Source of the DNA: Lachnospiraceae bacterium
Lineage (GTDB): Bacteria; Bacillota; Clostridia; Lachnospirales; Lachnospiraceae
Assembly (NCBI GenBank): GCA_017556805.1
Contig: JAFYMC010000036.1
Location: 1 to 64,000, forward strand
Length of the DNA stretch: 64,000 nt
Reading direction: 5' to 3'
Position 1 is the stretch's first letter; every line of letters starts with the position of its first letter. A program made the position numbers and the translations under genes. Shown here in pieces: positions 19,995 through 60,600 of this stretch. The notes beneath the pieces are model-generated. The model was not told where the DNA came from. It did not search any database and saw nothing but the letters and a program-made list of their open reading frames with translations.

Positions 19995-20023
19995 GCCCGT
20001 TTGTATAAGGAGAAGAGAATAAT

Positions 20024-25656: not shown

Positions 25657-25707
25657 AGCTTCCATGGGGTTGATAGCAACAAACTAGCAACACTATGGAA
25701 GCTTTTC
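25657..25707 (+). terminator. hairpin with T-run between degV and the integrase 3-prime end
   Basis: AGCTTCCAT (25657-25665) pairs with ATGGAAGCT (25695-25703), followed by TTTCT on the plus strand. The 29-nt loop is long, and the right arm overlaps the last codons of the integrase gene. Confidence 0.4.
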
Positions 25708-26757
25708 TATTGCCTCCCGGAGCTGCTCTACCGTCTTATGAATATACACTTTTTCGTCAAGGTCTTTTCCGGAATGCCCCATGAGGAGATTTCGGATAAC
25801 AGGGTTTGTACCGGCATCGTCCAGCATGGAGCTGAAAGTGTGGCGGCAGTCATGCAGCGTGTACTCCGTAGTTATTCCGATTTCCTTTATCGTATCCATG
25901 AAGAGTTTCCGGAGCTTGTCATAGGATATGCATCCACCCTTCTTTCTTATGGATGGCATCATGTACTCTCCAGGTGCATCGTATAGCTCTTTCACAAACT
26001 GCTGTATCCGCGGATGGATCGGAATGATTCGGTCCTTACCGGCATCTGTTTTGCTTCCGCCAGTCATAATCATGTTCTCTATATCCACGTTCTCCTTCGG
26101 CATTGTGGAAAATTCTTTCGCTCTCCATCCGGTGTAGATGTATATGAGTATGATTCGTACAAACGGAATTGCTGCATTGTTCCATAGTTTTTCTATATCG
26201 TCCGCACTGAACCGTACTCCGTGTTCTTCATCGTCCGGATTGCTTATCTGCAGAAACTCCGCATGATTCTTCTGAACGACATCCTCTCGCATTGCGAAGG
26301 CGTACATCCCCTTTATATGCAGTACCACGTTTTCTATTGATGCGCGTTTTAATGGGATGCTGTCGATGAGATTTTGCAAATCCCGGTGACGCAAATCGGC
26401 AAATACCTTCTTGTACAGAGGTTTGCAATGATTATATGCTGTTCTCGCTGCGTATTTTGACGATTCAGAGAGTTTCTTCTTTGAGGTGACAAATTTATCG
26501 TTGAAATACATTTCGTAGATTTCTGCGAAGGTGAGGTCCTTCCTGGAGAGGTCTACCGGATTCTTGTTGTACTCCGCCAGCGCAATCATTGCCTCAGTCC
26601 GATCCTCGTAGTATCCCAGGATTTCGTAGGTGTATGTCCCTTTATCATTTATCTTCGGATTCACACCCACCATCCAGGGGCGGCGGCGATTCCCGGACAG
26701 CTTCTTGATAGTTCCGTAGTTGTTCGGATTCCGCATTATCTGACGTTTTCTCGGCAT
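25693..26757 (-). CDS. int: tyrosine-type site-specific integrase
   Basis: A 354-residue phage integrase. The N-terminal arm-binding domain and the SAM-like core-binding domain (about 60-150) precede the catalytic domain, in which the tyrosine recombinase residues are seen: Arg in YTGWRAKEF, Lys in GGSKTDAGKDRIIP, the HxxR pair in LHDCRHTFSS, His in LLMGHSGKD and the nucleophile Tyr in EKVYIH. It faces the host gene degV, as expected for a gene next to attL. GGAAGTGATTTTTT precedes the ATG. A promoter region with inverted repeats lies upstream. Confidence 0.96.
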   Translation of the reverse strand: MPRKRQIMRNPNNYGTIKKLSGNRRRPWMVGVNPKINDKGTYTYEILGYYEDRTEAMIALAEYNKNPVDLSRKDLTFAEIYEMYFNDKFVTSKKKLSESSKYAARTAYNHCKPLYKKVFADLRHRDLQNLIDSIPLKRASIENVVLHIKGMYAFAMREDVVQKNHAEFLQISNPDDEEHGVRFSADDIEKLWNNAAIPFVRIILIYIYTGWRAKEFSTMPKENVDIENMIMTGGSKTDAGKDRIIPIHPRIQQFVKELYDAPGEYMMPSIRKKGGCISYDKLRKLFMDTIKEIGITTEYTLHDCRHTFSSMLDDAGTNPVIRNLLMGHSGKDLDEKVYIHKTVEQLREAIEKLP

Positions 26758-43558: not shown

Positions 43559-44989
43559 ATGGAGATGAAAATAACCAGGCCACAGCCGAAGCAAGAGCTG
43601 TTTATGCTTGCAGACTCTCACGATGTTGGATTTGGAGGTAGCAGAGGCGGAGGAAAGAGCTGGTCTGTCCGAACAAAGGCAAAGCTCCTTTGCGGTAATT
43701 ACGCTGGAATTAAGACGCTTATTGTGAGAAGGACATACAAGGAGCTACAAAACAACCACATCAATTTTCTTATTCCGGAATTGAAGGGTGTTGCAACGTA
43801 CAACAAAACAGAGAAGGTATTTACGTTCTTGAATGGAAGCACTATTGCCTTCGGTTATTGTAACAATGACAATGACGTGTTGCAGTACCAGGGAGCGGAA
43901 TACGATGTCATATTCCTCGATGAAGCAACACAGCTTCGCGAGGAGTGGATAAAGAAGATAAGGGTATGTTGCCGAGGCGTAAACGGATTCCCAAAGAGAA
44001 TCTATTACACCATGAATCCAGGCGGAGAATCACACGGATATATCAAACGATTATTCATTGACAGAAAATTCGAAGCTGGAGAGAGACCGGAGGACTACAC
44101 TTTCATTCAGTCGTTACTTACGGATAATCTAATCCTCATGGAGACGCAACCGGACTACATAAAGGATTTGGAGTCTCTTCCGCCAAAGCTAAGGGAAGCG
44201 TGGCTTAATGGTCGCTGGGATGTGTTCGAAGGCGCGTACTTTGAAGAGTTCCGTACCACACCCGATCCACAGAGGTGCCACGAAGCTGGCATAACGGAAG
44301 AAGAGGCACTGGAAGACCACAAGTTCACCCATGTGATAGAACCGTTCGAGATTCCTCCGGACTGGAAGATATACCGGTCCTATGACTGGGGTTATGGAAA
44401 ACCGTTCTCATGCGGATGGTGGGCCGTGGACTACGAAGGAATCGCATACCGCATCCTGGAACTGTACGGCTGCACCGGTACACCAAACGAGGGTGTGAGA
44501 TGGAGTAACAAGGAGCAGTTCGGAAAGATTGCAGAGATTGAGAGAGAACATCCATGGTTACGCGGTAAGAAGATACAAGGTGTTGCCGATCCGTCCATAT
44601 GGGATGGTTCACACGGTATATCGGCGGCGGAAGAGGCAGAGAAGTTCCAGCTATGGTTTGAACCGGGAATCAATGACCGTATTCCGGGATGGATGCAGTT
44701 CAGAGAGCGCATGAAGTTCGATGAGAACGGATATGCGATGATTTACTTTTTCAACACTTGCAAGGATGCTATCAGAACAATACCGCTGATGATGTATGAC
44801 GAACACAAGGTGGAGGATTTGGATTCTGATTTGGAAGACCATGCGTGTGACGAAATCCGGTATTTCTGCATGATGCGTCCGATTGCACCGAGAGTAATAG
44901 ACACCAAGATGAAACCTATGCACGATCCGCTGAATCAGTATGCGGAGCATGGCAAGTACCATAAATACAACGCTATCAAAAGGGGGTAA
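43559..44989 (+). CDS. terminase large subunit
   Basis: The packaging motor: an ATPase and nuclease. Walker A is GGSRGGGKS (26-34), Walker B VIFLDE (117-122), with an arginine-containing C-motif region. The nuclease domain follows with acidic sites in SYDWGYGKPF and ADPSIWDGS. The 476-residue length is typical. The start ATG has AGTAGGTGAG upstream. The portal gene follows 3 bp after the stop. Confidence 0.95.
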   Translation: MEMKITRPQPKQELFMLADSHDVGFGGSRGGGKSWSVRTKAKLLCGNYAGIKTLIVRRTYKELQNNHINFLIPELKGVATYNKTEKVFTFLNGSTIAFGYCNNDNDVLQYQGAEYDVIFLDEATQLREEWIKKIRVCCRGVNGFPKRIYYTMNPGGESHGYIKRLFIDRKFEAGERPEDYTFIQSLLTDNLILMETQPDYIKDLESLPPKLREAWLNGRWDVFEGAYFEEFRTTPDPQRCHEAGITEEEALEDHKFTHVIEPFEIPPDWKIYRSYDWGYGKPFSCGWWAVDYEGIAYRILELYGCTGTPNEGVRWSNKEQFGKIAEIEREHPWLRGKKIQGVADPSIWDGSHGISAAEEAEKFQLWFEPGINDRIPGWMQFRERMKFDENGYAMIYFFNTCKDAIRTIPLMMYDEHKVEDLDSDLEDHACDEIRYFCMMRPIAPRVIDTKMKPMHDPLNQYAEHGKYHKYNAIKRG

Positions 44990-44992
44990 ACC

Positions 44993-46993
44993 ATGGCGAG
45001 AAAGATTAGAGTGGCCGGTGATGAGGCCAGGAGGCAAGGACTTATGCAGAGAGCTGCAGCAGAGATTGATATGCTGAAGAAGAACAAGGCGGCAAAGGAG
45101 ATTCAGTCCATGCAACCGAAGAAGATTGGTCCGGATGAGGTATTGAAGGCATCCGACATCCTCAAGAAGTATAAGGCCGGTAAAACGAGACTGGAGCAGA
45201 AAATTATTGCGAACGAGGAGTTCTGGAAGCTCCGTCAGTGGCGGTATATCGATGAGGAGAATGCGGAGAAGGAATTCCAGCCGGCAACCGCATGGTTGTG
45301 GAGCTGTATCCAGAGCAGATACAGTGATGTGATGGATTCTTATCCTACGTGTAATGTAAAGCCGAGACAGGCGGATGACAAGGGCGAGGCAACGAAGCTC
45401 TCCGCTGTCGTTCCGGTGGTTATGGAGCAGAACCGGTATGAGGAGACCTACTCCGATATCGCGTGGTATATGCTCAAGCATGGCGGATGTGCCCAGGGAG
45501 TATTCTGGGATGGCAGCAAGCACAACGGTCTTGGGGACATCAGTATCAAGAAGATTGACTTTATCAACCTCTTCTGGGAGCCGGGCATTACGGATATCCA
45601 GGAGTCTACGCATCTGTTCCATACCGAGCTTGTGAATAACTCTCTCCTGGAACAGAGATATCCGCAGTGCGTAGGCAAACTGGGCGGTAACGGCATCACA
45701 CTTGCGAAGTATCTGTACGATGACAACGTGGATACGTCCGAGAAGAGCGTGGTAATCGATTGGTACTACCATACCGAGTATAACGGCAAGCGTGCGCTGC
45801 AGTTTGTAAAGTATGTAAACGACATCGTTCTGTATGCTACGGAGAACGAGACTGACATTCCGATGCGCCAGGAGATGGATGTGGAGACCGGTATCCCGCT
45901 TGAGGTTCCGACCGGAGAGATGAGTATCGCGCAGAGAGGTCTGTATGACCATGCGAAGTATCCGTTCGTGGTACAGGCACTGTATCCGGTAGAGGGAAGC
46001 ATCTGCGGATACGGACTTACGGACATCGGCAGAGACACCCAGGTGCAGATTGATGAGATGAATAAAGCTATCATGGAGAATGGTAAGGCCGGTGCAACGC
46101 CGAGATACTTCTCCAGAGGCGATGGAAGCGTCAATGAGGAAGAGTTTGGTGACTACAGCAAGAAGATTATCCATGTGGCCGGTAACGTGGATGAGGTCAA
46201 CCTCAGAGCGGTAGATAATTATCCGCTTCCGCCGGTATACGTTGAGTTGTACCGTAGCAAGGTAGAGGAACTTAAGTACGTCACTTCCAACCAGGATTCC
46301 AACAACGGAGTTGCTCCGTCCGGTGTGACCGCTGCATCCGCGATTGCGGCACTCCAGGAGACCGCCGGCAAGAATGCGCGAAGCAGTAACAAGGCATTCC
46401 ACAGAGCATACAGAGATGTTGTGTACCTTGTAATCGAATTGATCAGACAGTTTTACGATATTCCGCGTACCTTCCGCATTGCCCCGGACGTAAACGGCCA
46501 GGAGCAGTATGTGGAGTACAGCAACGCCGGCATTAAGGAACAGCAGATGCAGACCATGGGAGTTGCTACCGGATACCGCTTACCGGAGTTTGACATCGAG
46601 GTTACGAGTGAGAAGGCGAATCCGTACAAGAAGATGGAGATGAACGAGCTTGCCCTGAACTTCTATGCACAGGGATTCTTCAATCCGGATATGGCAGACC
46701 AGGCACTTGCGTGCTTGCAGATGATGGATTTCTCTCACAAGGACGAGATTGTCCAGAGAATCCAGCAAAACGGTACGTTACAGCAGCTTCTCGTACAGTA
46801 TCAGCAGATTGCGCTTGAGCTTGCACAGATGCATAATCCGATGCTGGCCGAGCAGATTGCACAGCAGATTCTTATGAGTGGCGGACAACCGATTCCGACT
46901 GGAGGCGTGGCAGATGTGGAAATGGGACAGCAAGAGCATCCGTATGTGGAGAAGTCTCGCGAACAGGCGAGAGCGTCCACACAGGCAGAATAG
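44993..46993 (+). CDS. portal protein
   Basis: A 666-residue protein at the place where the portal gene lies, between terminase and capsid genes. The length, the early basic part, the middle with conserved GVTAASAIAALQETAGKNAR (a portal stem signature), and a Gln-rich helical C-terminal end (about 590-650, QQILMSGGQPIPTG) fit the large podovirus-type portal. It should form the dodecameric DNA channel. GGGGGTAAACC precedes the ATG. Confidence 0.87.
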   Translation: MARKIRVAGDEARRQGLMQRAAAEIDMLKKNKAAKEIQSMQPKKIGPDEVLKASDILKKYKAGKTRLEQKIIANEEFWKLRQWRYIDEENAEKEFQPATAWLWSCIQSRYSDVMDSYPTCNVKPRQADDKGEATKLSAVVPVVMEQNRYEETYSDIAWYMLKHGGCAQGVFWDGSKHNGLGDISIKKIDFINLFWEPGITDIQESTHLFHTELVNNSLLEQRYPQCVGKLGGNGITLAKYLYDDNVDTSEKSVVIDWYYHTEYNGKRALQFVKYVNDIVLYATENETDIPMRQEMDVETGIPLEVPTGEMSIAQRGLYDHAKYPFVVQALYPVEGSICGYGLTDIGRDTQVQIDEMNKAIMENGKAGATPRYFSRGDGSVNEEEFGDYSKKIIHVAGNVDEVNLRAVDNYPLPPVYVELYRSKVEELKYVTSNQDSNNGVAPSGVTAASAIAALQETAGKNARSSNKAFHRAYRDVVYLVIELIRQFYDIPRTFRIAPDVNGQEQYVEYSNAGIKEQQMQTMGVATGYRLPEFDIEVTSEKANPYKKMEMNELALNFYAQGFFNPDMADQALACLQMMDFSHKDEIVQRIQQNGTLQQLLVQYQQIALELAQMHNPMLAEQIAQQILMSGGQPIPTGGVADVEMGQQEHPYVEKSREQARASTQAE

Positions 46994-47001
46994 GAGAGGC
47001 T

Positions 47002-47319
47002 ATGGTAGACGTTACATTTAAACCCAAGGAACTGAAGCTTACGATTAAGGGCCATGCCGGCGCAGCAGAAAAGGGAAAGGACATCGTATGTAGTGCGGTG
47101 TCCATCCTGGCGTACCAGCTTGCGTTTGCGGTAGAGGAAAGCAGAGATATGCTCGAAGAGGAACCGGTGATTCAGATTGAAGAGGGGGATGTGGTGGTAT
47201 CATGCGTCCCTAAGAAACCGTTCCTTGCAACGATGCAGAGAACATACTGGACGGTGCTGTGTGGTTTTGAGCTGCTTATCAGTATGCATGGAAACTACAT
47301 CAATTTCACTGTTGAATAA
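47002..47319 (+). CDS. phage-encoded Prp-type cysteine protease
   Basis: A 105-residue protein of the Prp family (YsxB), the cysteine protease that removes the N-terminal peptide of ribosomal protein L27 in Firmicutes. The family signature is clear: His18 in KGHAGAAEKGKD and Cys30 in DIVCSAVSIL, the catalytic pair. It lies between portal and scaffold, the place of a prohead protease. Scaffold, capsid and the 754-residue protein each start with the Prp-type site NLQLF(A/G), so they are the likely substrates. Host Prp has the same job for staphylococcal phages; here the phage brings its own. Confidence 0.85.
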   Translation: MVDVTFKPKELKLTIKGHAGAAEKGKDIVCSAVSILAYQLAFAVEESRDMLEEEPVIQIEEGDVVVSCVPKKPFLATMQRTYWTVLCGFELLISMHGNYINFTVE

Positions 47320-47357
47320 GGCGTTTTCATTCTTTTTGTCATATAATCCTCCGCAGA

Positions 47358-47384
47358 AGGGGCATCCGAAAGGGTGTCCTTTTT
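47358..47384 (+). terminator. intrinsic terminator inside the late operon
   Basis: AGGGGCATCC (47358-47367), GAAA tetraloop, GGGTGTCCTT (47372-47381) with three G-T pairs, then T residues. It reduces reading from portal-prp into the capsid genes, unless a new promoter follows. Confidence 0.75.
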
Positions 47385-47495
47385 GCTTTGAAAAATTTTT
47401 TTGTTTCGGGGTTAGAGAAAACACTATAGGCTTTGCTACGCTGACCATAGAAGGGTTCGTGCCCCAAAATAGCACAGACGAAAGGAGCATTTTAT

Positions 47496-48434
47496 ATGCG
47501 TGATTATTTATTGCTTAACTTACAGCTTTTCGGTGAAGGCGGCGATGGTGGAGCCGGCGGAGAAGGCGCAGTAGGTGGCGAAACTTCCGGAGCAGATATA
47601 CCTTCCGCTATCCCGGAGCGGGCAAGAAAGAACTACAGAGAGGCAGTCGAGAGACACTCCCCGAAGGTTCAGAATGATGCTCAGACCACTACAGAGCAGA
47701 AACCGAGCGAGAAGAAGACAACGTATGCGGACCTCATCAAGAGTGATGAGTACAAGGATGAACACCAGGCGTACATGGAGAAGACGATCGGTGACCGTTT
47801 GAAGAAGTACAAGGGCGTTGAGGCGCAAAACGCACAGATGATGGGACTTCTGGAAACCGTTGCATCCAAGTACGGTGTTGATAGTACCGCAGAGAATTTC
47901 CTTGAGACGCTTACCCAGAAGATGGAAGCGGATGATTCCTACTATGAGAATTATGCGATGGAGCATGACATCTCCCTGGAAGAGGCAAGGAAGGTTGTTA
48001 CTTTGGAGCGCAAGGTACAGGCCATTGAAGCACAGGAACAGGCAAGACAGAAACAGGAGGCTATGCATCAGCAGATTATGATTCTCCGCCAGAATGCAGA
48101 GAAGACGAAGGCCCGGTTCCCTGGTTTTGACCTTGACGCAGAGATGCAGAATGAACGGTTCCGCAGACTGTGTGCAGTGAACAATGGCGATACAACGGCA
48201 GCTTACATGGCGTGTCATTGGGAACAGGTAATGTCCGGAGCGGTACAGAATGCCGCCCAGCAGATTACGGCGCAGACCGCACAGGCGGTAGCGGCGAATA
48301 AGGCAAGACCGTCCGAGAATGGCATGAGCGGAAGCGTTGCCGCAGTAACCACAGCAGAAGATTTCAGCAATATGTCCCTGGACCAGCTCCGGGCATATGC
48401 AGACGCTGAAAAGAGAAAACGACAGGGAAGATAG
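47496..48434 (+). CDS. capsid scaffolding protein
   Basis: A 312-residue protein. It begins MRDYLLLNLQLFGEGGDGG, with an NLQLF motif that should be cut by Prp after Phe12; a Gly-rich stretch follows (to about 35). The middle and end are long charged coiled coils rich in Glu, Lys and Gln (about 85-260), as in phage scaffolds (GP20/Phage scaffold type). It directly precedes the capsid gene. GAAAGGAG lies before the ATG. Confidence 0.82.
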   Translation: MRDYLLLNLQLFGEGGDGGAGGEGAVGGETSGADIPSAIPERARKNYREAVERHSPKVQNDAQTTTEQKPSEKKTTYADLIKSDEYKDEHQAYMEKTIGDRLKKYKGVEAQNAQMMGLLETVASKYGVDSTAENFLETLTQKMEADDSYYENYAMEHDISLEEARKVVTLERKVQAIEAQEQARQKQEAMHQQIMILRQNAEKTKARFPGFDLDAEMQNERFRRLCAVNNGDTTAAYMACHWEQVMSGAVQNAAQQITAQTAQAVAANKARPSENGMSGSVAAVTTAEDFSNMSLDQLRAYADAEKRKRQGR

Positions 48435-48471
48435 CAATTATCTCCCTGTATACAGAAGGGAGAAAACAACC

Positions 48472-49476
48472 ATGAGAAAGAAGAATTTAAACTTGCAGTT
48501 ATTTGCAGAGTTCACCCAGGGTACCACTGCTGGTACTCCGACCGTTAATCCGGTCAATGTAACCACGATGTCCGCACTGTCTCCGACCATGAAGACCTTC
48601 TACAACAAGACCTTGTTGGAGAATGCTCGTGAGCAGATGGTGTTCACACAGTTCGGTGACAAGCAGCCGATGAAGGGCAACAAGATTGAGTGGAGAAAGT
48701 TCAATACCTTTGCAAAGGCGTTGACTCCGCTTACTGAAGGCGTTATTCCGGAAGGCAAGACCTTCGGCATGACCGCTATCGAGGCAACCACCACCCAGCA
48801 TGGTGATTACACCGCAGTATCTGACCGCTTAGAGTTAGAGTCCTATGATGATGTAATCTTCGGTGCTACCGAGGAGATGGGTGCTGCAGAGGGCGAGACC
48901 TACGACACCCTTACCAGAAACGTGCTTGTAGGCGGTAATTCCGTAGCATACTGTGGTGGCAAGACCTCCAGAACTGCTCTTACCACTACCGATGTACTTA
49001 CTCCGGAGATGGTTGCAAAGGCAGCTACCTGGTTGAAGAAGAACAAGGCTCCGCTCATTGACGGTTCCTATGTTGCAATCATTCATCCGTCCGTAGCATT
49101 CGACCTCCGCAACAGCGAGGAGTGGAAGGAATTCCATAAGTACAACGATGTTCAGCCGATCTTCAAGGGCGAAATCGGTATGCTCCACAATGTTCGTTTC
49201 GTTGAGAGCAACGAGGCAAAGGTTTGGGGCAAGGGCGAAGGCCAGTCTGCTGTATACGCTACTCTGTTCTTCGGTAAGAAGGCATTCGGCGTACTCGATC
49301 CGGAAGGTGAAGGCATGGAGATGATCGTTAAGCCGAAGGGAACCATCGGCGGACCGCTTGAGCAGTTCAGTACCATTGGTTACAAGTTCTGCCACGGTGC
49401 AAAGATTCTGTACCAGGAGAGAATTCTCCGTGTAGAATCCGGTTCTTCCTACGGTGACGTAGACCAGGAGAACTAA
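48472..49476 (+). CDS. major capsid protein, N4-gp56 family
   Basis: A 334-residue capsid protein of the N4-gp56 family, recognised by PTMKTFYNKTLLENAREQ, KQPMKGNKIEWRKF, LTEGVIPEGKT and DGSYVAIIHPSVAFDLR. It is an HK97-fold protein. The N-terminus MRKKNLNLQLFAEFTQG carries the Prp site (cut after Phe11). The ATG at 48472 (GAAGGGAG upstream) gives this motif; the frame from 48397 overlaps the scaffold and is not used. Confidence 0.92.
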   Translation: MRKKNLNLQLFAEFTQGTTAGTPTVNPVNVTTMSALSPTMKTFYNKTLLENAREQMVFTQFGDKQPMKGNKIEWRKFNTFAKALTPLTEGVIPEGKTFGMTAIEATTTQHGDYTAVSDRLELESYDDVIFGATEEMGAAEGETYDTLTRNVLVGGNSVAYCGGKTSRTALTTTDVLTPEMVAKAATWLKKNKAPLIDGSYVAIIHPSVAFDLRNSEEWKEFHKYNDVQPIFKGEIGMLHNVRFVESNEAKVWGKGEGQSAVYATLFFGKKAFGVLDPEGEGMEMIVKPKGTIGGPLEQFSTIGYKFCHGAKILYQERILRVESGSSYGDVDQEN

Positions 49477-49490
49477 GACCAACCATAAAA

Positions 49491-49515
49491 GGGAGCGGAT
49501 TCGCCTTCCGCTCCC
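49491..49515 (+). terminator. hairpin after the capsid gene (no T-run)
   Basis: GGGAGCGGA (49491-49499) pairs perfectly with TCCGCTCCC (49507-49515). The following TATAAAG lacks a T-run, so it is more probably an mRNA-stabilising or partial-stop element that raises capsid expression over later genes. Confidence 0.6.
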
Positions 49516-49536
49516 TATAAAGAAAGGATGATAGGC

Positions 49537-49782
49537 ATGGCAACAACTAAAGAAAGCACAGCTACCGGTAAGAAGATTCGTGTTAAGCTTCCGAGAGCAA
49601 ACGGACACAATGCAAACCAGGATGAGTTTTTCTCCGTAAACTTCAAGAACTACATCATCAAGCGTGGTGAGTACGTTGAGATTCCGGAGGAACTTGCAGA
49701 GGTAATCGAGAACGGCGAGAAGGCAGAAGATGCCGCTTTCGAGTTTGCAGAGAAGAAAGCTCTCAAGGAACCGAAGGCTTAA
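49537..49782 (+). CDS. small protein behind the capsid gene
   Basis: An 81-residue acidic/basic protein (MATTKESTATGKKIRVKLPR start) with a beta-rich core (DEFFSVNFKNYIIKRGEYVEIPEEL) and a helical end. Position and size fit a head decoration or head-completion protein, but no family is known to me. AGAAAGGATGATAGGC precedes the ATG; a strong terminator follows. Confidence 0.55.
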   Translation: MATTKESTATGKKIRVKLPRANGHNANQDEFFSVNFKNYIIKRGEYVEIPEELAEVIENGEKAEDAAFEFAEKKALKEPKA

Positions 49783-49799
49783 GAATGAGAATGATGGAA

Positions 49800-49826
49800 G
49801 GGGAAGCTGTATGCTTTCCCTTTTTT
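49800..49826 (+). terminator. intrinsic terminator after the head genes
   Basis: GGGGAAGC (49800-49807), loop TGTAT, GCTTTCCC (49813-49820, one G-T), then six T. Confidence 0.85.
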
Positions 49827-49845
49827 ACTTAAAAGGGGGTAAACC

Positions 49846-50286
49846 ATGAGAATTGAGGAGTGCATCAACCGAGTGGATTCCGTAAAGCCGAACCACTACG
49901 GAGTAGAAGAGAAGGTAAGGTGGTTGTCCTACCTTGACGCATCCATTAAGAGAGAGATTATCGACACACATGAACAGCCTGTACCGGCGGAAGAAAAGAC
50001 CATCATCGTTATTGGTGACGGTGAAATCCCGGAAGAGGAAAGCACAGAGTTCACCGGATATACTCCGGATGACATGACCGCGGAGCTTCTCGTACCGTTT
50101 CCGTTTGATGAACTGTACGTTGCGTACCTTAAGGCCAAGATTGACGAGGAGAACGGAGAAACGGCGCGGTATAACAACAGTGCAGCTACCTTCAATGGGT
50201 TGCTGATGGATTACGAGAAGGCATACAACAGAGACCATATGCCGATTCGGAAGCATATGCGTATCTTCAAGGGGGTGCATATCTGA
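49846..50286 (+). CDS. head-tail connector/adaptor-like protein
   Basis: A helical, acidic 146-residue protein with the pattern of podovirus adaptor proteins: an N-terminal helix (MRIEECINRVDSVKPNHYG), PFPFDELYVAYLKAKIDEENGE, and a C-terminal Tyr-rich helix (TARYNNSAATFNGLLMDYEKAYNR). It follows the capsid genes and precedes the tail gene, as adaptors do. The stop overlaps the next start by one base (TGATG). No direct family name can be given. Confidence 0.6.
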   Translation: MRIEECINRVDSVKPNHYGVEEKVRWLSYLDASIKREIIDTHEQPVPAEEKTIIVIGDGEIPEEESTEFTGYTPDDMTAELLVPFPFDELYVAYLKAKIDEENGETARYNNSAATFNGLLMDYEKAYNRDHMPIRKHMRIFKGVHI

Positions 50287-52112
50287 TGTATTTCCCACAG
50301 TACAATGATGTACCGAGAAGCAGAGAGATGACCGCCGTGTTTGGCGGATATAACCATAGATTGTCGTGTGCAGAGGGCGAATTCTACGACATGAAGAACA
50401 TGACTACGGACTACTATCCGATTCTCTCCCCACGTAAGAAGAGGGGCAAAGCATGGGAATTGGGAGCGTGCAGAGGCATGGCATCCACGAACGGACACGT
50501 TTATTGGGTGGATGGTATGTATCTCTATCGAGACGGTGAGAAGATTGCTGACCGGATGGTTTCGATGAGCTATGTGGCCCATGCGGATATGCCGGTGATG
50601 GGTTCAAGTATCGTATTTGCAAGCGGCGGTAATGCGCTGACTTGTGCGTATGACACGAACAAAGGCGAATTCTCCAATCTGTACGATTTTTTGGATGTAG
50701 GTGCGAACGGTGGGGTTTTATTCGGACCTTCTACACCGGAAGGAAGCACTATTGACATCAGCGCAAGCGAGGAAGAACCGGTAGACGGAGAGTATCGTGC
50801 CGCATGGGTAGATGGTAAGAAGGTACTGAGGCAGTGGTCCGAAAGCACGTCCACATGGGTGTCTACTCCTACCAATCACTATTTTATCAGCACAGATTAT
50901 CCGTCCGACCTCAAGAAAGGTGATTGTGTAAAGATAACGGTGAATTTTAGTACAGGAAGCGGAACCATGGATATTCCGGATGTAGCGAAAGTTATCCTCC
51001 CGAATGAAGAAGAAGGAAATAAGAGGTCTGTGGAAACCTATGTGGTTGAATTGGTAGACAAGAACGAGGAAGGGGTAATTACGAGAGGCATCGTCCTTCC
51101 TGGTGTGCTTGCTGAGTATATAAAAATCGGCAGTGGAATCAGAATCGAGCGCATCGTTCCTAACATGGATTTTATCGTAGAGTGTGAGAACCGTCTTTGG
51201 GGAGCCGCTTATGATGGTCATGAAATCTATTCGTGTAAGCTTGGAGATTTCAAAAACTGGAGACTTTTCCGGGGCATTTCAACCGATTCCTATGCAGTGA
51301 CCATTGGTTCTGATGGCGGATTCACCGGAGCAGTCACGTACCTTAATACTCCGATTTTCTTCAAGGAAGACAGCATGATTCGTATCTATCCGTCTCCTAC
51401 CGGCGCACACCAGGTGAAGGAAACGAAGTGCAGAGGCTTGCAGTTCTATTGCCACAGGAGTTTGTGCGTAATCAACGAGGTCCTGTATTACAAGAGTAAG
51501 GACTGTATCTGTGCGTTTGACGGAAGTTTACCGGTAAGCGTGTCTGAAAACTTTGGTGAGGTTAGATATGAGAACGCAGTAGCTGGTACAATAGGTAATA
51601 AATACTACATCAGTATGTCCGGTGGCGGAAGGAAAAATCTCTTTGTGTACGATGTTGTGAAACATATCTGGACACGAGAAGATGAAATCTCTGTATCTGA
51701 GTTCTGCCGACACGAGGATGACCTCTATATGGCCGTAAAAGAAGGAAATAAGGAGAGGATTTGCACTGTAAACGGCACTCTCCCGACCGATTCGTCTGAA
51801 CTTGAGGATGATTTCGAGTGGTACGTGGAAAGCGGAATGATCGGATTCAATACTCCGGACAATAAGTATGTGTCGAAGCTTACCATCCGACTCTCGATGG
51901 AGTTGGGGACGAATGTAGATGTGTATCTGCAGTACGATTCCTCCGGAACATGGGAACACGTTGCGAATATGAGCGGCACAGGCACGAAGTCCGTGAATGT
52001 CCCGGTATTACCGAGAAGATGTGACCACTTCCGTTACAAAATCAGTGGTGTGGGTGATTGCAAAATCTTCTCCATCACCAAAACCATCGAAGAAGGGAGC
52101 GATGTTCGATGA
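50286..52112 (+). CDS. tail protein, probable tail nozzle (beta-propeller)
   Basis: A 608-residue, beta-rich protein with repeated short strands and Trp/Tyr-rich segments (MTTDYYPILSPRKKRG, HVYWVDGMYLYRDGEKIAD, IPNMDFIVECENRLWGA, KNLFVYDVVKHIWTRED). It resembles the nozzle proteins of short-tailed phages, which form the lower end of the tail tube. It follows the adaptor gene and precedes a short coupled frame. No catalytic motif is visible. Confidence 0.6.
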   Translation: MYFPQYNDVPRSREMTAVFGGYNHRLSCAEGEFYDMKNMTTDYYPILSPRKKRGKAWELGACRGMASTNGHVYWVDGMYLYRDGEKIADRMVSMSYVAHADMPVMGSSIVFASGGNALTCAYDTNKGEFSNLYDFLDVGANGGVLFGPSTPEGSTIDISASEEEPVDGEYRAAWVDGKKVLRQWSESTSTWVSTPTNHYFISTDYPSDLKKGDCVKITVNFSTGSGTMDIPDVAKVILPNEEEGNKRSVETYVVELVDKNEEGVITRGIVLPGVLAEYIKIGSGIRIERIVPNMDFIVECENRLWGAAYDGHEIYSCKLGDFKNWRLFRGISTDSYAVTIGSDGGFTGAVTYLNTPIFFKEDSMIRIYPSPTGAHQVKETKCRGLQFYCHRSLCVINEVLYYKSKDCICAFDGSLPVSVSENFGEVRYENAVAGTIGNKYYISMSGGGRKNLFVYDVVKHIWTREDEISVSEFCRHEDDLYMAVKEGNKERICTVNGTLPTDSSELEDDFEWYVESGMIGFNTPDNKYVSKLTIRLSMELGTNVDVYLQYDSSGTWEHVANMSGTGTKSVNVPVLPRRCDHFRYKISGVGDCKIFSITKTIEEGSDVR

Positions 52113-52342
52113 GACTTGACTATCCCAACCTTATCGGCGGAAGTCCTACGGACCAGATACAACAGTTAAGGACGTGCATGGTTCATATGGTGGACACCAT
52201 AAATCTCTTTATTGGCAGTCAAGAGAGCGCAAATGATGCTGTTAAGAGAGAAATGGAGGCCATAAAGAACGATTTGCAGAGAATGAATCAGAGCATGGAC
52301 GTACAGAACCAATATACAATGAAGCAGATTAAGGGGGTATGA
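52109..52342 (+). CDS. small coiled-coil virion protein
   Basis: A 77-residue helical protein (MRLDYPNLIGGSPTDQIQQL start) with a likely trimeric coiled coil in the second half. The ATG overlaps the previous stop (ATGA). It is placed among tail genes and probably helps assembly. Function not known. Confidence 0.5.
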   Translation: MRLDYPNLIGGSPTDQIQQLRTCMVHMVDTINLFIGSQESANDAVKREMEAIKNDLQRMNQSMDVQNQYTMKQIKGV

Positions 52343-52344
52343 TA

Positions 52345-54606
52345 ATGCGAAACATCAATTTACAGTTGTTTGCGCTCACGCTGAACACGAAGACATCCAT
52401 TGTGGATTACCTTAAGAGTACCGGACAGGATTCTTCGTATGCCAACAGAAAAAAGCTGGCCGGTCAGTACGGTATCTCGAATTACACCGGTACCGCAGAC
52501 CAGAACACGAAGCTTCTGCAGAAGATGCAGAATGCAAGTTCCGCATCAGCAAGTAGCACAAATAAGCAGAGTGGTACGAGCAAGACAGCGTCTTCCGCAG
52601 TAAAGAACAGCGTTGCTGATAAGGTCCTGGACTTTGCTGCAAGCGCGAAAAAGAATTCTGCCGGCAGTGACACTGTCGTAAAGGATGCGGCGGATTTGCT
52701 GGAGCAGAGAACGGAGCAGACGTTTGCATCAAACCCGGCAGTATCTACTCCTCTTGTATCAGAGTACATTCCGAAGGCAGAAACTCCGCAGACGAATCCG
52801 GTAGAGATGCCGACTGTTTCCACTTCGCAGTTTAAGCCGGTAGATATGCCGACTTTTACACCGCAGACGAATGTGAACATACCGACATATACTCCGGTAG
52901 AAATGCCGACCTATACGCCGAACACACAGCCGGCACAACAGGCTACTCCGTTAAAGGACAGACTGGACCAGGCTACTCTTGATAAGTTAAACTCTCAGTT
53001 CGTGGTATCGGACGCTTACAACAAAGCTATGGAGTATACCAATGGACTCCTGCAGAATTTAAACTCCGGAAGGACGCAGTATACGGACCAGATTTCCCAG
53101 CTCATCAAGGATTTCCAGAACAGAGAGAAGTTTTCCTATGATTCCGCTACCGATCCGTTATTCCAGCAGATGCTTGGTTCCGCCATGCAGTCCGGTAATC
53201 TTGCAATGCAAGACACGATGGGACAGGCCGCGGCACTTACCGGGGGATACGGTTCTTCCTATTCCCAGGCGGTAGGCAACAATGCCTACAATCAGTACAT
53301 CCAGGAAGCGTACAACAACCTTCCGGAGTATTATCAGCTTGCGATGGATGCGTACAACATGGAAGGTCAGAATATGCTCAACCAGATTAGCCTTCTGGAT
53401 GCTGCAGACTCCAAAGAGTATGACCGTATGTTCAATGCATGGAATACGAATTACCAAAATGCACAGGATATGTACAACAAGGAGTACGGTGCATGGAGAG
53501 ACAGCGTAGCGGATGCGTATAATTACGCCGGTCTGCAGAATGATGATTACTGGAACAACCTGGAGTACAACGAGAGCATCCGTCAGAACGAGCAGAACTT
53601 CCAGTATCAGCAGTATCTCGACCAGCTCAAGCAGTCTCAGTGGCAGAACGAGTTCAATTATCAGCAGTACCTTGACCAGATGAACCAGGCTAATGCCGAC
53701 CGCGACTTCCAGTATCAGCAGTACAGAGACCAGGTGGCGCAGAATCAGTGGCAGAACGAGTTCAACTACGGCCAGTACATGGACCAGGTGGCACAGAATC
53801 AGTGGAAGGACGAGTTTGATTACCAGAAGGAACAGGATAAGGCTGCACAGGACCGTTGGCAGAATGAGTTTGACTATGAGAAGGAACAGGACAAGCAAGC
53901 TCAGACCAACTACGAGAACGAGTTTAATTATCAGAAAGAACAGGATAAGCAGTCCCAGAGTAATTGGGAGCAGCAGTTCGAGTATGGCAAGGAACAGGAT
54001 GCATTATCTCAGAGTAATTGGGAAAAGCAGTTCGCCCAGGATGTCATCGAGTTTGATAAATCCTTTGCAGAGGAGCAGAGACAGTTCGATCAGTCTCTCA
54101 GAGAAGACCAGCGGCAGTACGACACTTCCATGAAGTTCAACAAGGACCAGGCGAAGGAAGAACAGGCCAGATGGGAGAAAGAACAGGCAGAAAAGGGTGC
54201 TTCCGGTAATTCTGGTTCGGGTGAGGCAAAACTCTCTAATCTGACAAACACCGAAATAGAGAATGTGAAGGAAATCTACACAGAAGCCGGAGGTGGAATG
54301 AACGGAAATATCGCGGTAGACCGGTACCTTACTATGATCGGTAAGAACAATGTGGATAACGAAACGCTTGCCTCAATGCTTGCAAGCGTAGAGATTCCTC
54401 TTGAGTACCAGAACTGGACCATCGATAAGGACACAAACAATGGTGGATTCTTATGGTGGAAGGGTGAAGACCACAACGACACGTATAAATACGGAGATGA
54501 AATTCTTACCTACGATGAACTTGTAGAAAGAATCGAGGAATCCGACCTTAGCGATGCGAAAAAGAAGGAACTGAAGAAGAAACTTAAAGAACAATCTAAA
54601 AATTAG
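52345..54606 (+). CDS. virion protein with Prp site and nine 18-residue repeats
   Basis: A 753-residue protein. It begins MRNINLQLFALTLN, so a Prp-type cut after Phe9 is expected. Residues about 10-215 are low-complexity Ser/Thr/Ala/Pro-rich; 215-400 are helical with YNKAMEYTNGLLQ and MLGSAMQSGNLAMQDTMGQAAAL; 412-573 are nine tandem 18-residue repeats of the form QxxWQNEFxYxxxQDxxx; the rest is a charged coiled coil and a small C-terminal domain. The ATG at 52345 has GGGGG upstream at 7 bp; the ATG at 52339 is also in frame. Its place before the giant ejected protein suggests an internal virion protein or a tail part. Confidence 0.65.
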   Translation: MRNINLQLFALTLNTKTSIVDYLKSTGQDSSYANRKKLAGQYGISNYTGTADQNTKLLQKMQNASSASASSTNKQSGTSKTASSAVKNSVADKVLDFAASAKKNSAGSDTVVKDAADLLEQRTEQTFASNPAVSTPLVSEYIPKAETPQTNPVEMPTVSTSQFKPVDMPTFTPQTNVNIPTYTPVEMPTYTPNTQPAQQATPLKDRLDQATLDKLNSQFVVSDAYNKAMEYTNGLLQNLNSGRTQYTDQISQLIKDFQNREKFSYDSATDPLFQQMLGSAMQSGNLAMQDTMGQAAALTGGYGSSYSQAVGNNAYNQYIQEAYNNLPEYYQLAMDAYNMEGQNMLNQISLLDAADSKEYDRMFNAWNTNYQNAQDMYNKEYGAWRDSVADAYNYAGLQNDDYWNNLEYNESIRQNEQNFQYQQYLDQLKQSQWQNEFNYQQYLDQMNQANADRDFQYQQYRDQVAQNQWQNEFNYGQYMDQVAQNQWKDEFDYQKEQDKAAQDRWQNEFDYEKEQDKQAQTNYENEFNYQKEQDKQSQSNWEQQFEYGKEQDALSQSNWEKQFAQDVIEFDKSFAEEQRQFDQSLREDQRQYDTSMKFNKDQAKEEQARWEKEQAEKGASGNSGSGEAKLSNLTNTEIENVKEIYTEAGGGMNGNIAVDRYLTMIGKNNVDNETLASMLASVEIPLEYQNWTIDKDTNNGGFLWWKGEDHNDTYKYGDEILTYDELVERIEESDLSDAKKKELKKKLKEQSKN
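53578..54063 (+). repeat. nine tandem 54-bp coding repeats
   Basis: Units of 54 bp (18 residues) start at 53578 and at each 54 bp up to 54063, all with a FxYxxxxD core. The first five units have QQYxDQ, the later ones QKEQDK. Expansion by slippage or unequal crossing over is likely. Confidence 0.85.
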
Positions 54607-54617
54607 GAGGACAAGGA

Positions 54618-57600
54618 ATGGGGAAATTTTTGGATTACACTAGTAGAAAGGAAGAGGAGAAATCCTCTTCCTACGGTGGTCTTGGAGGGTTCGGAAGGTA
54701 TACTCTTGGAAACACGATAGGAATTGATACCTTTGATGATGACCTTAAAAACACCAACAAGATTCTGTCTGACGTGTATAACACATGGCAGAACAGAGAC
54801 TCCATGACATCAAAAAAGAATACGGTAGCATCCATGCGAAATCGTTTGAATGACTTGTATTCTTATTCTCGCTCAAGCGGTCAGGATACCACAGAAATCA
54901 AGAAGGTGCTGGATGCATATGATGCGGCATTAGGTGATTGGGACGGACTCACCGAGTATTACGGAGGGTTCAAGAGCGGAGATGCGTATTCAAATTACAT
55001 GAAGGAGCAAGCTAAAAAGGAAGAGCTTTCCAAAAAGTCTGCGTTCGATGAGTACAGACATCTTCTTGAGGACGAAGAGTTCATGAAGAATGCGAACTAT
55101 GATTCCGCAAAGAAGAATATGTCCTTCTGGGATCATCTGACCGACAAGTCCGACCTTTATGAAGTCAATAAGGAGAACAAGGATGGACTGCTGTACGATA
55201 TCGACCATGCCCTTAGTAAAGCCTTCCCGGTAGAGAGTACGAAGTATCAGTATCTTACCGATGATGAGTTGAGCGTTTACTATGGACTCCATGCTCAGGA
55301 TAAGAACCAGGCGGATGACTTCCTTGAGAAGATGAGCAAGGAATTAAATAAGAGAATGACCGATGCAGACCTTGAAGGGCAGAGAGAATTCGCACAGAAG
55401 AATGCTTTCACCGGGACGATTTCTACCATCGGTGCATTGGGCAACAACCTTATTGGTGGTATTTCTGCTTTGAACAGTGATATCAAAAACCTCATCACCG
55501 GTAATGATGTCGATGCGAATGATTACGCACACATCTACACGAACAGAGCGGATGCACTGACGGAAGCGGTTTCGGATAATATCGGAGAGAGTACGGACAC
55601 CAAGGTGCTTCCGTTCCTCTATGACACCGGTATGTCCATTGCAAATTCGGCGTTGAATCTGGTGCTTCTCGGTGGTAGCGGCTCCCTTGCGAATATGTCC
55701 ACCCAGGCATACTCTTCTAAAATGAAGGAGATGCAAGACAGAGGAGCTTCTCAGACGGAGATGATTCTTACCTCTGCATTGGCAGCCGGCATCGAAGCAA
55801 TTACCGAAAAGATTCCGATGGACAACCTGTTAAAGCCGAAGGGAGTAACCACTCTCAGAAGATTTATCGGTGAAACAATGAAACAGGCTGGAATCGAGGC
55901 CACAGAAGAAGGCGTTTCCTCCATTCTGAATCAGACCGTAGATGTACTGAGCGGTCAGTTGGGGGGAACATCCGAATTTAAGAACCAGTATGAGGATTAT
56001 CTCCTCAGAGGCTATACAGAGGACGAGGCGAAGAAAGAAGTCGCAAAGGGAGCATTGGAAGAGACGTTGCTTTCCGCTCTTGGTGGTGCCATCAGTGGTG
56101 GTTTCATGGGTGGTGTTTCTTCCAGCGTTGAGTATTCCGGATACAAGGAAATCGGCAATCTTGTTTCAAAGAATAATCAGACCGGCACCCTTTCGGATAT
56201 TGCTACAGAACTTAACGGTAACGGATTTGCTGAGTATGTGAAGATGATCAATGAGGGTACCGCAAATAAGGCGCAGATTGGTAGTCTGTATCAGAAGGTG
56301 TCCGAGGAGGCAGATAAGAGATATCTGGATGAGAAGGGCAACGCCGAGATGCACGCTATCGCAAACCGGGCAAATGAACTTGGCGATACCAGAAGTTCCG
56401 GTGTGATTGCATCCGCCATTGTAAAGAAACTGAGCGGCAAGAGTCTTTCTGCGGAAGAGAAGACCGCAATCAAGACGGATACCGCAAAGACCATCATGAC
56501 AGAGATTCGCAATGGAGAAATCACCGCAGAGAGCAACGAGGCACTGGATAAGGCACTTGACAGAGTGGGCAAGGTATCTTCCATGCTTACCACGACAAAG
56601 ACTGCTGATTCGATCGCTGTAAAGAAGCGCATGGCATCCATGCACACCGGCGATGAGACGATTGACAATGCTACCGGTAACAAGATTACCATTGAGGGTA
56701 TGAGAACGGATGACGATGGCAACACTGTTCTCCAGACGAGTGAGGGAGAGAGACTTCTGGATGATGTCACCCTTTCCGATGGAGACGCGGAGGTGGTTGC
56801 TATGGCAGAGGGAATGGACGCGGATAAGGCGGACCTGTTCGTATCCCTGTATCAGTCCGGAAGTGACGTTCAGAGCTACAGTGATTCCTTTGAGCTTGCA
56901 TTCGCCTACGGCAAGAATGCATACGGAACCAACGAACCGCTAAAGAACAAGGGCGTTTTGACTGAGGCCCAGGTAGCAAGTGTGTATGAACTTGGTCTCC
57001 GGAGCAGTACGGCCGACCAGCAGAAGACAATCGATGAGATTGCGGCGAAGCATTTTGCTGACGGTAAAGAGATTCTTCCGGGGAAATTCGATGATTCCGC
57101 AGTAAATTACAAGAAACTTAACGGCAGACAGAAGGCGGCGGTATCCTTTGCGAGAATGCTGTCCGAGAAGACCGGTGTGAACATCGTATTCTTCGAGTCT
57201 GAGGCGGACGAGAACGGCCACAGAACGGCGGAGAACGGACGATACGAGAGGAATAGTAACACTATCTATGTCGATGTGTACGCCGGCATGAATGAGAACG
57301 TGGTAGAGGATGCAATCATCCCTACGCTTTCCCATGAGATGACGCACTGGATGAAGAACAAGGCCCCGGAAGCATATGCGAAGCTGTCCAGTATTGTAAT
57401 GGATACGATCGGAGCTGATATGGGAGCATCCCCGGCTGTTCTTGTTGGAGCAGAGCGTGCCAGATTCAATGTGGCACATAATGCGGATGTGTCCAGTGAG
57501 TATGCACAGGACGAGCTTATCGCAAGAGCGTGTGAGGATATGCTTACCGGAAGCGCGCGCGCAAAGGAAATTCTCTCTCAGATGGACGAGAAGACCGCGA

Positions 57601-60600
57601 GAACGCTTGCCGAAAAGGTAAAGGAGTTCTTCGAGAAGTTCAAGGAGTGGATGGCAGACCTTCTCAATGTGTATAAGTCCAACAGCAACGAGGCGAAGAT
57701 TATCCGCAAGTATGCTGACCTGATGAACGAGTTGCAAGAGACATGGGACGATGCGTTTGAGAAGTCTATCAGAGCAAACCAGGCGATGGAGAAAGCATCC
57801 GCCAGACCGGAAAGAATGGCTGCATCCGAGAGACAGTATGCAGAAAGAGAGTCTTACAGAAGTGAAGTTGCCGAATGGTTTTCAGATGGTATGCCGAGCG
57901 GAGAAACTTTTATTCTTGGCAACACGAGTGATGTTATTCAAGGACTCGGAGCTATGGAAATGGATATTTACATCTTGGGTGACAAAATTAAGACGATTTT
58001 AGAGGAACATCCGGAAATAACCATTGATGAAATCAAGAAGATTCCGCAGATTCTCGAAAAACCTATCTTGATTTTGGCAAGTAAAAATGTAAAAGGGAAG
58101 CGTTCTAACTCTCGAATTGTAGCGTTTGGAAATGTGAAAGGAAAGAACGGACAGCCGGTGCTTTCGGTTCTTGACCTTAAACCGTTTGAAAAGGGAATCC
58201 GGATTGACGATATGCAAAAAGTTTCGAGTGCATATACAAAAACAGGTGAGAACAGAGTAGATTTTATTAAGCAAAGCCTTGTAATGTATGCGGACAAAAA
58301 AAGAGCCACATCATTACTTCGAACCATAGGCTTCTCTGCACCTATGGAACTGAATGACAGTGGCTTTTTAGGTAGTATATCATATATTAACGAAAAAGTC
58401 AAATTAGAGGGAAAGAACTTCTCCGAAGTATTCAGAGAAAGAGAAATTCAGTTTTCCGACAGGGCTTCAAACGGAAACGGCCTTACTCCGGAGCAAGTGG
58501 AGTTTTTCAAAGATTCAAAGATTCGTGATGAAAATGGAAATCTTTTGGTGATGTACCATGGTACCGGCAGAGCTGACCGCGTAGGATACCATTTCAGAGA
58601 GGACAGAGCAACATCTGGCCCAATGGCATTCTTTACGGATAGCAAGAGCGTAGCTGACAATTATGCAAAGGACAAACAGGACACGTCACTTGCATACGAC
58701 GAGAGATATCGTGACTACTACACACAGTTCCGTATTGAGGTAGACAGTAAGGAGATGTCAATCACGGAGGCTTGGGACAAGTTACCGGTAGCAAAGAAGG
58801 TTGAAATCAGAAAGAGAGCTCCTCATGTAACGTTTGATGATGATATGGAGAATATTGTCTATAACGAAAACGCAGAGAGGGGCACCGGTGGTTTTGATAG
58901 ATATCGCATCAATGAACACGGAGGAAATTATCTTTCTGCACTTGTTGGCGAGTGGTTAGAAGACGGAAATCTTTACGGACAAGAAGAGGAGTTTCTCACA
59001 GTTCTTTCGCTTGTTGGTCTTGAAGATGTTAAGTACATGGATCCGGATATGAGGGATGAGAAGACTTACCAGGTGTATTTGAATGTGAAGAATCCGTTCG
59101 ATACAACGAATATTTCTTCTGATATGGTACAGGCATTTAAGAATGCAGCAGATAATACCGTGTATGAACCGGGAGCTGGTGCGGATACGTGGGATAAGCG
59201 CAACATCAGACCGGAGCAGTGGATTGAAAGACTGGAGAGTGACATCGCAAACGGAACAACCTATGTATGGACTTCTATCCCGGATTTCGTAACGGATGTT
59301 TTGAAGAAGAATGGCTATGATGGAATTGTGGACAAGGGCGGTAAACAAGGTGGTTCTGTTCACACGGTTGTGATTCCGTTCTATTCCAACCAGGTAAAGG
59401 ATATCACTAATCAGAATCCTACAGAGGATGTTGACATCCGGTATTCCGAGCGTCAGACCGAAAGCATCTATGATGCCGTAGGCGAGCTGAAGCGGCTGCA
59501 GCGTGAGAACGATAAGCTCCGCAAGGACGTGGACCGTCTCAGACAGAGAAACAGACTGGAACATACCGTTACCGGCGGAAACATTCTGAATGAGAATCAG
59601 ATTGATGCGGTTGCCGGCCACATTCTGAATATTGCAGACAGCAGATACGGCAAGGAGACTCTTGCTAAGGAGCTGAAGGAGATTTACACGTATTTGCAGT
59701 CCGAGGGTGTTGAATGGGATGTATTCATGTCGAAGGCAACGGATACCGCGCAGAGACTCATTGCAGAGGCAAGAGAACGTAAGATCCCGAACGATTACTC
59801 CAAGATGATTCTGGATACGCTTCGGACAACGAGAGTGTCTCTCAATGATGTTCAGAAGGAAGAGGCAAAGAACGCCTTCGGAAGTGACTGGAACCGTATG
59901 TACTTCGGAAGAGTCCTTGTGGCAAACGATGGCATTCCGCTTGAGTCCGTATGGAGTGAGTGGTCTATGATGTATCCGGACGTATTCGATGCTGATATTT
60001 CAGATGCGGACATGGCAACGGCGGTCCTGGATGCTTACGATACTCTCAAGGCATCTTCGGAAATCGTAGAGTCCTACGACAACGCTGAGACCGCAAGAGC
60101 GATTGCGCTGGAGATTTACAATCAGTTCTGGAACGTATCCCCGGTGAGAACGCTTGCCGATAAGCACAGCAAGGAAGTGAAGCGTTTGAAGTTCGAGCAT
60201 CGACAGGAGATGAAGGAACTGAGAGACCGGTACAACGTCAAGAAGGATGAGGCCGTTCAGACTACGAAGGAGCGGTACCAGAAGACGATCCAGCGTCTGA
60301 AGGAGAAGCGTGCCGAGGATATTCAGTTCTATAGGGATAAGAGCAGAGAATACACGAAGCAGTATAAGGAGAAGCTGGACAGACAGGCAGTGATCAACAA
60401 AATCACGAAGAAGGCATTGAAGCTTAACACCTGGCTTGTGAAGAATTCCAAAGACGAACACGTTCCGGAAATCTTAAAGAAACCGGTAGCTGCGGTTCTG
60501 AAATCTCTTAACTTCTCTTCCGAGCGTTTACTTGGAATGAGAGGCGGAGAGATGACCGGTGAACCGACTCAGAGGGATATATCGCTCAGTAAGGCATTTG

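Follow-up and report, generated by a model that had tools for sequence, protein, structure and literature searches.

Prohead proteases of the HK97/herpes type are encoded beside portal and head genes and trim head proteins, a role like the one predicted here for phage-encoded proteases of the Prp (C108) family. The two families are unrelated, and the phage Prp system would work without a delta domain, on short leaders with a fixed motif. Two described systems are closer. In Staphylococcus aureus, the host Prp cuts the capsid protein (CP) and scaffold protein (SP) of phage 80alpha at an F/A bond (PMC5744158). The protease of Streptococcus phage Cp-1 (orf13) has been placed in clan CR/C108 (PMC12445089). 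The present analysis concerns a 64,000-nucleotide stretch of a Lachnospiraceae bacterium (GCA_017556805.1, contig JAFYMC010000036.1, positions 1 to 64,000; "the window"), which consists of bacterial chromosome and a prophage starting near an integrase gene at 25693-26757. A Prp gene lies in the head operon of the prophage. We consider it highly probable, from gene content and sequence comparison, that this dedicated Prp-type (C108) protease removes the leaders of a scaffold-like protein, the major capsid protein (MCP) and a putative ejection protein, and that enzyme and leaders form a largely self-sufficient module which does not need the host Prp.

The window resembles the S. aureus/80alpha pair in the C108 family of its enzyme and in the [N/D]LQxF/A site near the start of both the scaffold and the capsid protein. 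The S. aureus Prp is host-encoded, however, whereas the window Prp is phage-encoded and lies in the head operon. The window also adds a predicted ejection-protein substrate, its relatives add a tail protein, and relatives of the prophage occur in hosts without a Prp gene linked to that of ribosomal protein L27. The Cp-1 enzyme, which shortens the major head protein from its N-terminus (PMC12445089), is, like the window enzyme, a small cysteine protease encoded by the phage; action on the MCP is a prediction for the window enzyme. The Cp-1 protease differs in scoring only 18.5 bits to PF04327 and in removing 48 residues from its head protein, and an LQxF leader was found neither in residues 1-90 of the Cp-1 MCP nor in the Cp-1 scaffold. 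Genes of the same family as the window Prp (phrog_4478, 'peptidase') adjoin the portal gene or lie a few genes from it in phiFL3A, PLgT-1, BL3 and Oenococcus phages, where they are annotated 'ribosomal protein' or 'peptidase'; these annotations give no substrate, and substrates are predicted in this analysis. The cutting of 80alpha proteins by host Prp and the possession of a C108 protease by Cp-1 were known before; the phage-wide rule, the co-varying specificity and the occurrence in Prp-less hosts are new. No description of a phage-encoded Prp with LQxF substrates was found among the open-access papers listed in literature searches, and earlier mention elsewhere is possible.

The head operon runs in the order terminase large subunit (TerL), P22-type portal, Prp, scaffold-like protein, N4-gp56-type capsid, small genes, and proteins of 608, 753/755 and 2774 residues. 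The presence of both a P22-type portal and an N4-gp56-type MCP places the module in the P22/N4-gp56 type, and the 608-residue protein belongs to internal virion protein family phrog_511. The features are:

25693..26757, minus strand: prophage integrase (PF00589), the probable left end of the prophage; the genes before it look host-like by eye
43559..44989, plus strand: TerL (PF03237/PF04466, PHROG terminase families)
44993..46993, plus strand: P22-type portal (PF16510, 89.4 bits; phrog_156)
47002..47319, plus strand: phage Prp cysteine protease, 105 aa (PF04327, 50.3 bits; phrog_4478)
47496..48434, plus strand: scaffold-like protein, 312 aa (phrog_13908, 164 bits, unknown function), directly before the MCP
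47496..47531, plus strand: leader of the scaffold-like protein, MRDYLLLNLQLF, predicted scissile bond F12/G13, conserved in relatives
48472..49476, plus strand: MCP, 334 aa (TIGR04387 N4-gp56 capsid, 232 bits; PF13252; phrog_1357)
48472..48504, plus strand: MCP leader MRKKNLNLQLF, predicted scissile bond F11/A12
52339..54606, plus strand: putative internal (ejection) virion protein, 755/753 aa (PF12200; phrog_2307, phrog_5182)
52345..52371, plus strand: leader of the 753-aa protein, MRNINLQLF, predicted scissile bond F/A
54618..62942, plus strand: polyvalent protein of 2774 aa without a leader (MuF_C and ART-PolyVal domains)

An earlier sequence-only reading had placed a Prp-type cysteine protease with His18 and Cys30 at 47002, where a prohead protease would be expected. 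Both residues are present, the gene stands between the P22-type portal and the head genes, and the protein matches PF04327 (E 2.9e-13) with a score above the Pfam gathering score of 27 bits; its PHROG family is annotated 'peptidase'. With the roles of the active-site residues taken from S. aureus Prp (SaPrp; PMC9405229), the His-Cys dyad and the equivalents of SaPrp Gly21, Asp31 and Ser38 are all found in the window enzyme (G17, H18, D27, C30, S34). Its Gly25-x-Asp27 is the counterpart of SaPrp Gly29 and Asp31, which bond the P3 Gln in the structure of SaPrp with a substrate analogue (PMC9405229). Five positions (G17, H18, A19, C30, S34) are invariant across 30 aligned Prps. The protein falls below the cut-offs for L27 equivalogs (42.7 bits with the best-scoring NCBIfam model, whose cut-off is 171, and too low a score with each of the 11 models listed), and the gene lies between portal and scaffold rather than between L21 and L27. 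The L21-L27 operon of the host, on a different contig, codes for a Prp of its own, and the L27 there starts MFKMNLQFF/AHKKG; BLAST aligns only 48 columns of the two Prps, at 42% identity. The reading of the window Prp as a stray host gene was rejected, since the gene is inside the head operon.

The three leader-bearing proteins begin MRDYLLLNLQLF/G (scaffold-like), MRKKNLNLQLF/A (MCP) and M(IM)RNINLQLF/A (third protein). Among 70 mechanically chosen, little-overlapping open reading frames (ORFs) of the window (20,170 aa), the expression [ND][LIV]Q[LFHMYIV][FL][AGSC] has exactly three matches, which are these three N-termini; counted from the start positions listed above, the offsets are 7, 6 and 6. 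A chance origin of the motifs was rejected on this count. The claim that three proteins start with the L27-type cleavage motif is borne out by the same scan, and the staphylococcal L27 motif LNLQFF/A that it was compared with agrees with Table 1 of PMC9405229. Some details of that claim need qualifying. The first protein does start with the motif, and its identity as a scaffold comes from its position. The longest ORF of the MCP starts at 48397, which would put the motif at offset 31. The third protein has 753 residues from its second ATG, which by eye has the better-spaced GGGGG, and 755 from its first; its part in ejection is presumed. In the loci examined, its leader is found on all five distinct N-termini preceding a SIVDYLKS-type stretch. 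The N-terminal domain of this protein is one common to endolysin families; right after the predicted cut it matches endolysin and L-alanyl-D-glutamate peptidase families, so cutting of the leader would put an endolysin-like domain at the new N-terminus. The leaderless polyvalent protein lies directly 3' of this third predicted substrate.

Relatives (L numbers denote loci, G numbers genomes) were gathered by searching viral contigs with Prp and two capsid proteins (53, 39 and 39 loci, partly overlapping) and genome contigs with the capsid alignment (best 80 of 103 relatives, whose titles name Clostridia or Bacillota/Firmicutes). Clustering of MCPs at 97% gave 117 representatives, 87 of them with Prp; MCP domains shorter than 230 aa were dropped before a tree was made. 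A module subset comprised the 89 representatives in which the MCP gene is preceded by a portal gene in the same orientation. A leader was called present if MCP or scaffold passed a site score, and a Prp at any place in the retrieved locus was accepted. Of the 89 modules, 81 have both Prp and leader, two Prp only (L172, L208), two a leader only (L174, L212) and four neither (Fisher 8.9e-5, kinship ignored). This table comes from the score alone, and it was unchanged when the portal profile was rebuilt from seven sound seeds; an alternative count used by-eye leader calls for L172, L174, L181, L208, the L093 group and the L185 scaffold. By eye, both Prp-only modules have leaders ending in F. The four modules without either are informative losses: genes for terminase, portal, scaffold and capsid are all present in L211, L224 and L227, and those for portal and capsid in L213. 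The survey of phages for Prp with leader starts, which the sequence-only reading had called for, thus finds the two together in most portal-to-capsid modules, and the relatives support a dedicated protease-substrate module, as judged from their sequences.

Among the 87 Prp-bearing representatives a site was scored on the MCP in 82 and on the scaffold in 68. P1' is small (A, S or G) at 80/82 and 66/68 of these sites, respectively, P1' being part of the score. L predominates at P2, where F, H, M, R, K, I, V and other residues also occur; the P2 residue differs between the MCP and scaffold of one phage in 22 of 65 pairs.

The enzyme and its site change together at P3, a position left out of the score (P3 was set by eye for L172, L208 and L229). 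P3 could be called in 87 Prp-bearing representatives. The seven without Gly-x-Asp all lack P3 Gln at every called site, and 77 of the 80 with Gly-x-Asp keep it on one site or more. On the capsid tree Gly-x-Asp changes five times and P3 Gln six times. In the L092-L097 clade the substrate loop of Prp is shortened and the Asp lost (SEGNALIC, SELIC, SEGNYLIC), and the scaffold and capsid leaders read [NKM]LLR[FH], for example NLLRF. L207 has the loop GQALVC with leaders NLKLF and DLRLF, and L208 the loop SEAGC with leaders LNLF and LDLF by eye; in L226 and L189 Glu occupies the Gly29 position and P3 Gln is absent. All 30 aligned Prps, altered ones included, retain the catalytic His, Cys and Ser (L189 is outside the alignment), which makes the altered Prps aligned look like re-tuned rather than dead proteases. 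Decaying pseudo-enzymes were rejected as the cause of the altered sites on this ground, and because in the L092 clade the alternative site appears on two unrelated proteins. Some altered Prps exceed the Pfam cut-off of 27 bits (L092 30.3, L207 35.0) and others fall below it (L097 21.6, L093 17.2, L208 25.7); the identity of the latter rests also on position and on the invariant residues. In a further variant, L284 (G109), the substrate loop of Prp carries a long insertion (GHAVSDEVLNGCGCDETDISRADSDSVC), and the neighbouring capsid-like protein has the leader SLKLF/G.

Of 78 distinct host genomes, 68 yielded an L27, and in 66 the L27 N-terminus could be read, with a leader in 61 and without one in five. 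In four of the five (G098, G114, G120, G135) L27 starts MAHKKG, preceded immediately by a stop or by a stub of two residues, and there is no prp between L21 and L27, which follow each other directly. PF04327 matches at E <= 0.001 number 2, 2, 1 and 1 in these genomes, every one in a phage head module (L207 and L271, L178 and L172, L158, and L180). The leaders there are NLKLF/DLRLF, NLQFF, DLQHF/DIQRF, IQLF by eye, NLQLF/S and DLQHF/HLQLF. The G135 module lies on a 117-kb contig, where chromosome-like genes and another prophage-like set can also be made out by eye. In the fifth genome, G107, no Prp match was found, and its phage has neither Prp nor leader. Simple mimicry of L27 by the phage leaders was rejected, since hosts without an L27 leader still have prophage leaders. 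The retention of Prp and leaders in such hosts suggests that the phage system is able to run without ribosomal-protein processing. With this, and with the movement of some phage Prps to sites unlike host L27, the proposal that capsid maturation is coupled to such processing finds no support. The accompanying proposal, that the phage uses its own enzyme on three proteins, fares better: the enzyme is its own, and co-occurrence, co-variation and Prp-less hosts make the three N-termini its likely sites.

The Prp of phage phiFL3A matches 31 phage records at E <= 0.01 (8 without a host name), and the named host genera are Firmicutes; a tblastn search of phages with the window Prp gave 32 records at E up to 10, the best at 8e-5. 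In seven of the 31 (phiFL3A, Krappator27, PLgT-1, TP712, BL3, TMW 1.1447 P1 and DO134P1) Prp lies near portal or head genes, with a leader on scaffold and MCP in 7/7 and on a tail protein in 5/7, roles in DO134P1 being assigned by position. A search for literature on these phages found no N-terminal data among the entries listed. In Dorea phage DO134P1 (L060) no gene is annotated over the Prp match at about 8001-8300, and three structural-type proteins have leaders. The window Prp was matched in 57 of 98 related genomes; the two best matches after its own (L126, 90%; L127, 43%) are in head modules, and most of the remaining matches are assumed to be host copies.

Several observations weigh against a dedicated, self-sufficient module. 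Over all 117 representatives the counts are 85 with Prp and leader, 2 with Prp only, 23 with leader only and 7 with neither (Fisher 9.9e-4), so that leaders without Prp are common; outside the modules they make up 21 of 28 representatives in the DNA examined. Fourteen of the 23 have less than 2,500 bases of upstream DNA. The other nine are L174, L212, L162, L203, L179, L217, L218, L220 and L222, some of which are split gene sets; L162, L179, L220 and L222 have a Prp beside a portal elsewhere in the same genome. L203 (a single Prp, unplaced), L217 (a second Prp, in another prophage) and L218 (genome outside the Prp search) are unexplained. Conversely, six loci (L034, L043, L048, L049, L053, L054) have Prp beside a portal-like gene, but neither a nearby leader nor a match to the capsid profile was seen in the DNA examined. 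Only 68 of the 87 Prp-bearing representatives gave a scaffold site, and P1 = F is partly circular because the score was trained on Q-type sites with P1 F or L. L228, L230 and L233 keep Gly-x-Asp, yet P3 Gln is missing from both of their substrates. Neither tree-aware pair test is significant, whether for Prp and leader (about 3 same, 1 opposite, 1 no difference) or for P3 (3 same, 0 opposite, 1 no difference), the latter being unable to reach significance with only four supported pairs. The four Prp-less hosts are metagenome bins of unstated completeness, in which mis-binning or a missed gene is possible.

The host Prp might cut the leaders as it does in 80alpha (PMC5744158), leaving the phage Prp as a redundant or dosage gene. 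The window host (G000) has its own Prp and a long L27 with the NLQFF motif, and its Prp could do or share the cutting here; L174 and L212, which keep leaders without a Prp in the module, may likewise depend on a host enzyme. We nevertheless regard this as unlikely, since prophages with Prp and leaders occur in the four bins that lack both an L27-operon prp and an L27 leader, and since phage sites and enzyme diverge jointly from host L27, as in L208, whose host has IGLQFF. That the leader stays uncut as an assembly or folding signal, bound by Prp acting as a chaperone, is less probable again. A chaperone role for Prp has been proposed in a review, and 80alpha with mutated CP and SP cleavage sites is viable, so that cleavage need not be essential, yet the uncut SP N-terminus is needed for assembly (PMC5744158, PMC9405229). 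The invariance of the catalytic residues even where the loop is altered argues for a protease, as do the small P1' residues, though P1' was scored, and the fact that the 80alpha proteins are cut at this site.

Cutting of host L27 by the phage Prp, which the sequence-only reading had raised, is possible: the phage and host motifs are alike, and since P2 varies within single phages, a host-type NLQFF would probably be accepted. That the enzyme mainly attacks L27 or ribosome assembly during infection, with its effect on phage proteins secondary, seems very improbable. Phage Prp persists where the host's L27 is leaderless, it co-occurs with structural leaders, and the sites have diverged from L27 in several lineages.

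We return to the dedicated phage module. Its genes and motifs, their co-occurrence and co-variation and the Prp-less host bins are observed; actual cleavage, its timing and its purpose are what we infer from the sequences. Prp would be made from the head operon and would remove a leader of 9-12 residues ending N-L-Q-L-F from the scaffold-like protein, the MCP and the putative ejection protein. Through Gly25 and Asp27, the loop Gly17-Asp27 would close over the P3 Gln and so move His18 up to Cys30, the residue that would cut F/A or F/G. To judge from 80alpha, the leader probably has a role in folding or in the order of assembly, and cutting would accompany head assembly. Phage enzyme and leaders would evolve as one largely self-sufficient module. 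A bacterial enzyme that trims a ribosomal protein is apparently carried by many phages to trim the starts of their shell proteins. With this as a simple rule, mature head proteins could be predicted across a large group of Firmicutes phages, and it would account for the gene annotated 'ribosomal protein' or 'peptidase' in many of them. It would also supply natural enzyme-substrate pairs in which the specificity of this protease, a proposed antibiotic target, is altered, and the purpose of Prp cleavage in capsid assembly becomes testable in phages of seemingly Prp-less hosts.

A wider and distinctly speculative proposal, which we hold rather doubtful as a whole, is that Prp and leader form an autonomous, re-codable phage module in which P3 recognition changed jointly several times, orthogonal to the host L27 pair; that it persists in unlinked, apparently domesticated Clostridia head gene sets; and that host L27 processing is possibly a captured branch of it. 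Some Clostridia genomes have head genes at two chromosomal places, a scaffold and MCP block (L217, L220, L222, L179, L214) and a block of terminase small subunit (TerS), TerL, portal and Prp (L362, L363, L365); L364 also belongs here. The scaffold and MCP blocks have Prp leaders, followed by a LysM protein, and those of L217 and L220 lie near YabP/YabQ-type and phosphopentomutase-like genes. The terminase-portal-Prp blocks adjoin a class V aminotransferase-like gene in 3/3 with that flank in the DNA examined. No tail genes were seen by eye near the split blocks, which may represent a domesticated head, like that of a gene transfer agent (GTA), still using Prp.

In the host-like DNA to the left of the window prophage (18735-21301), two adjacent similar proteins appear, by eye, to be a duplicated secreted GH10-type enzyme.

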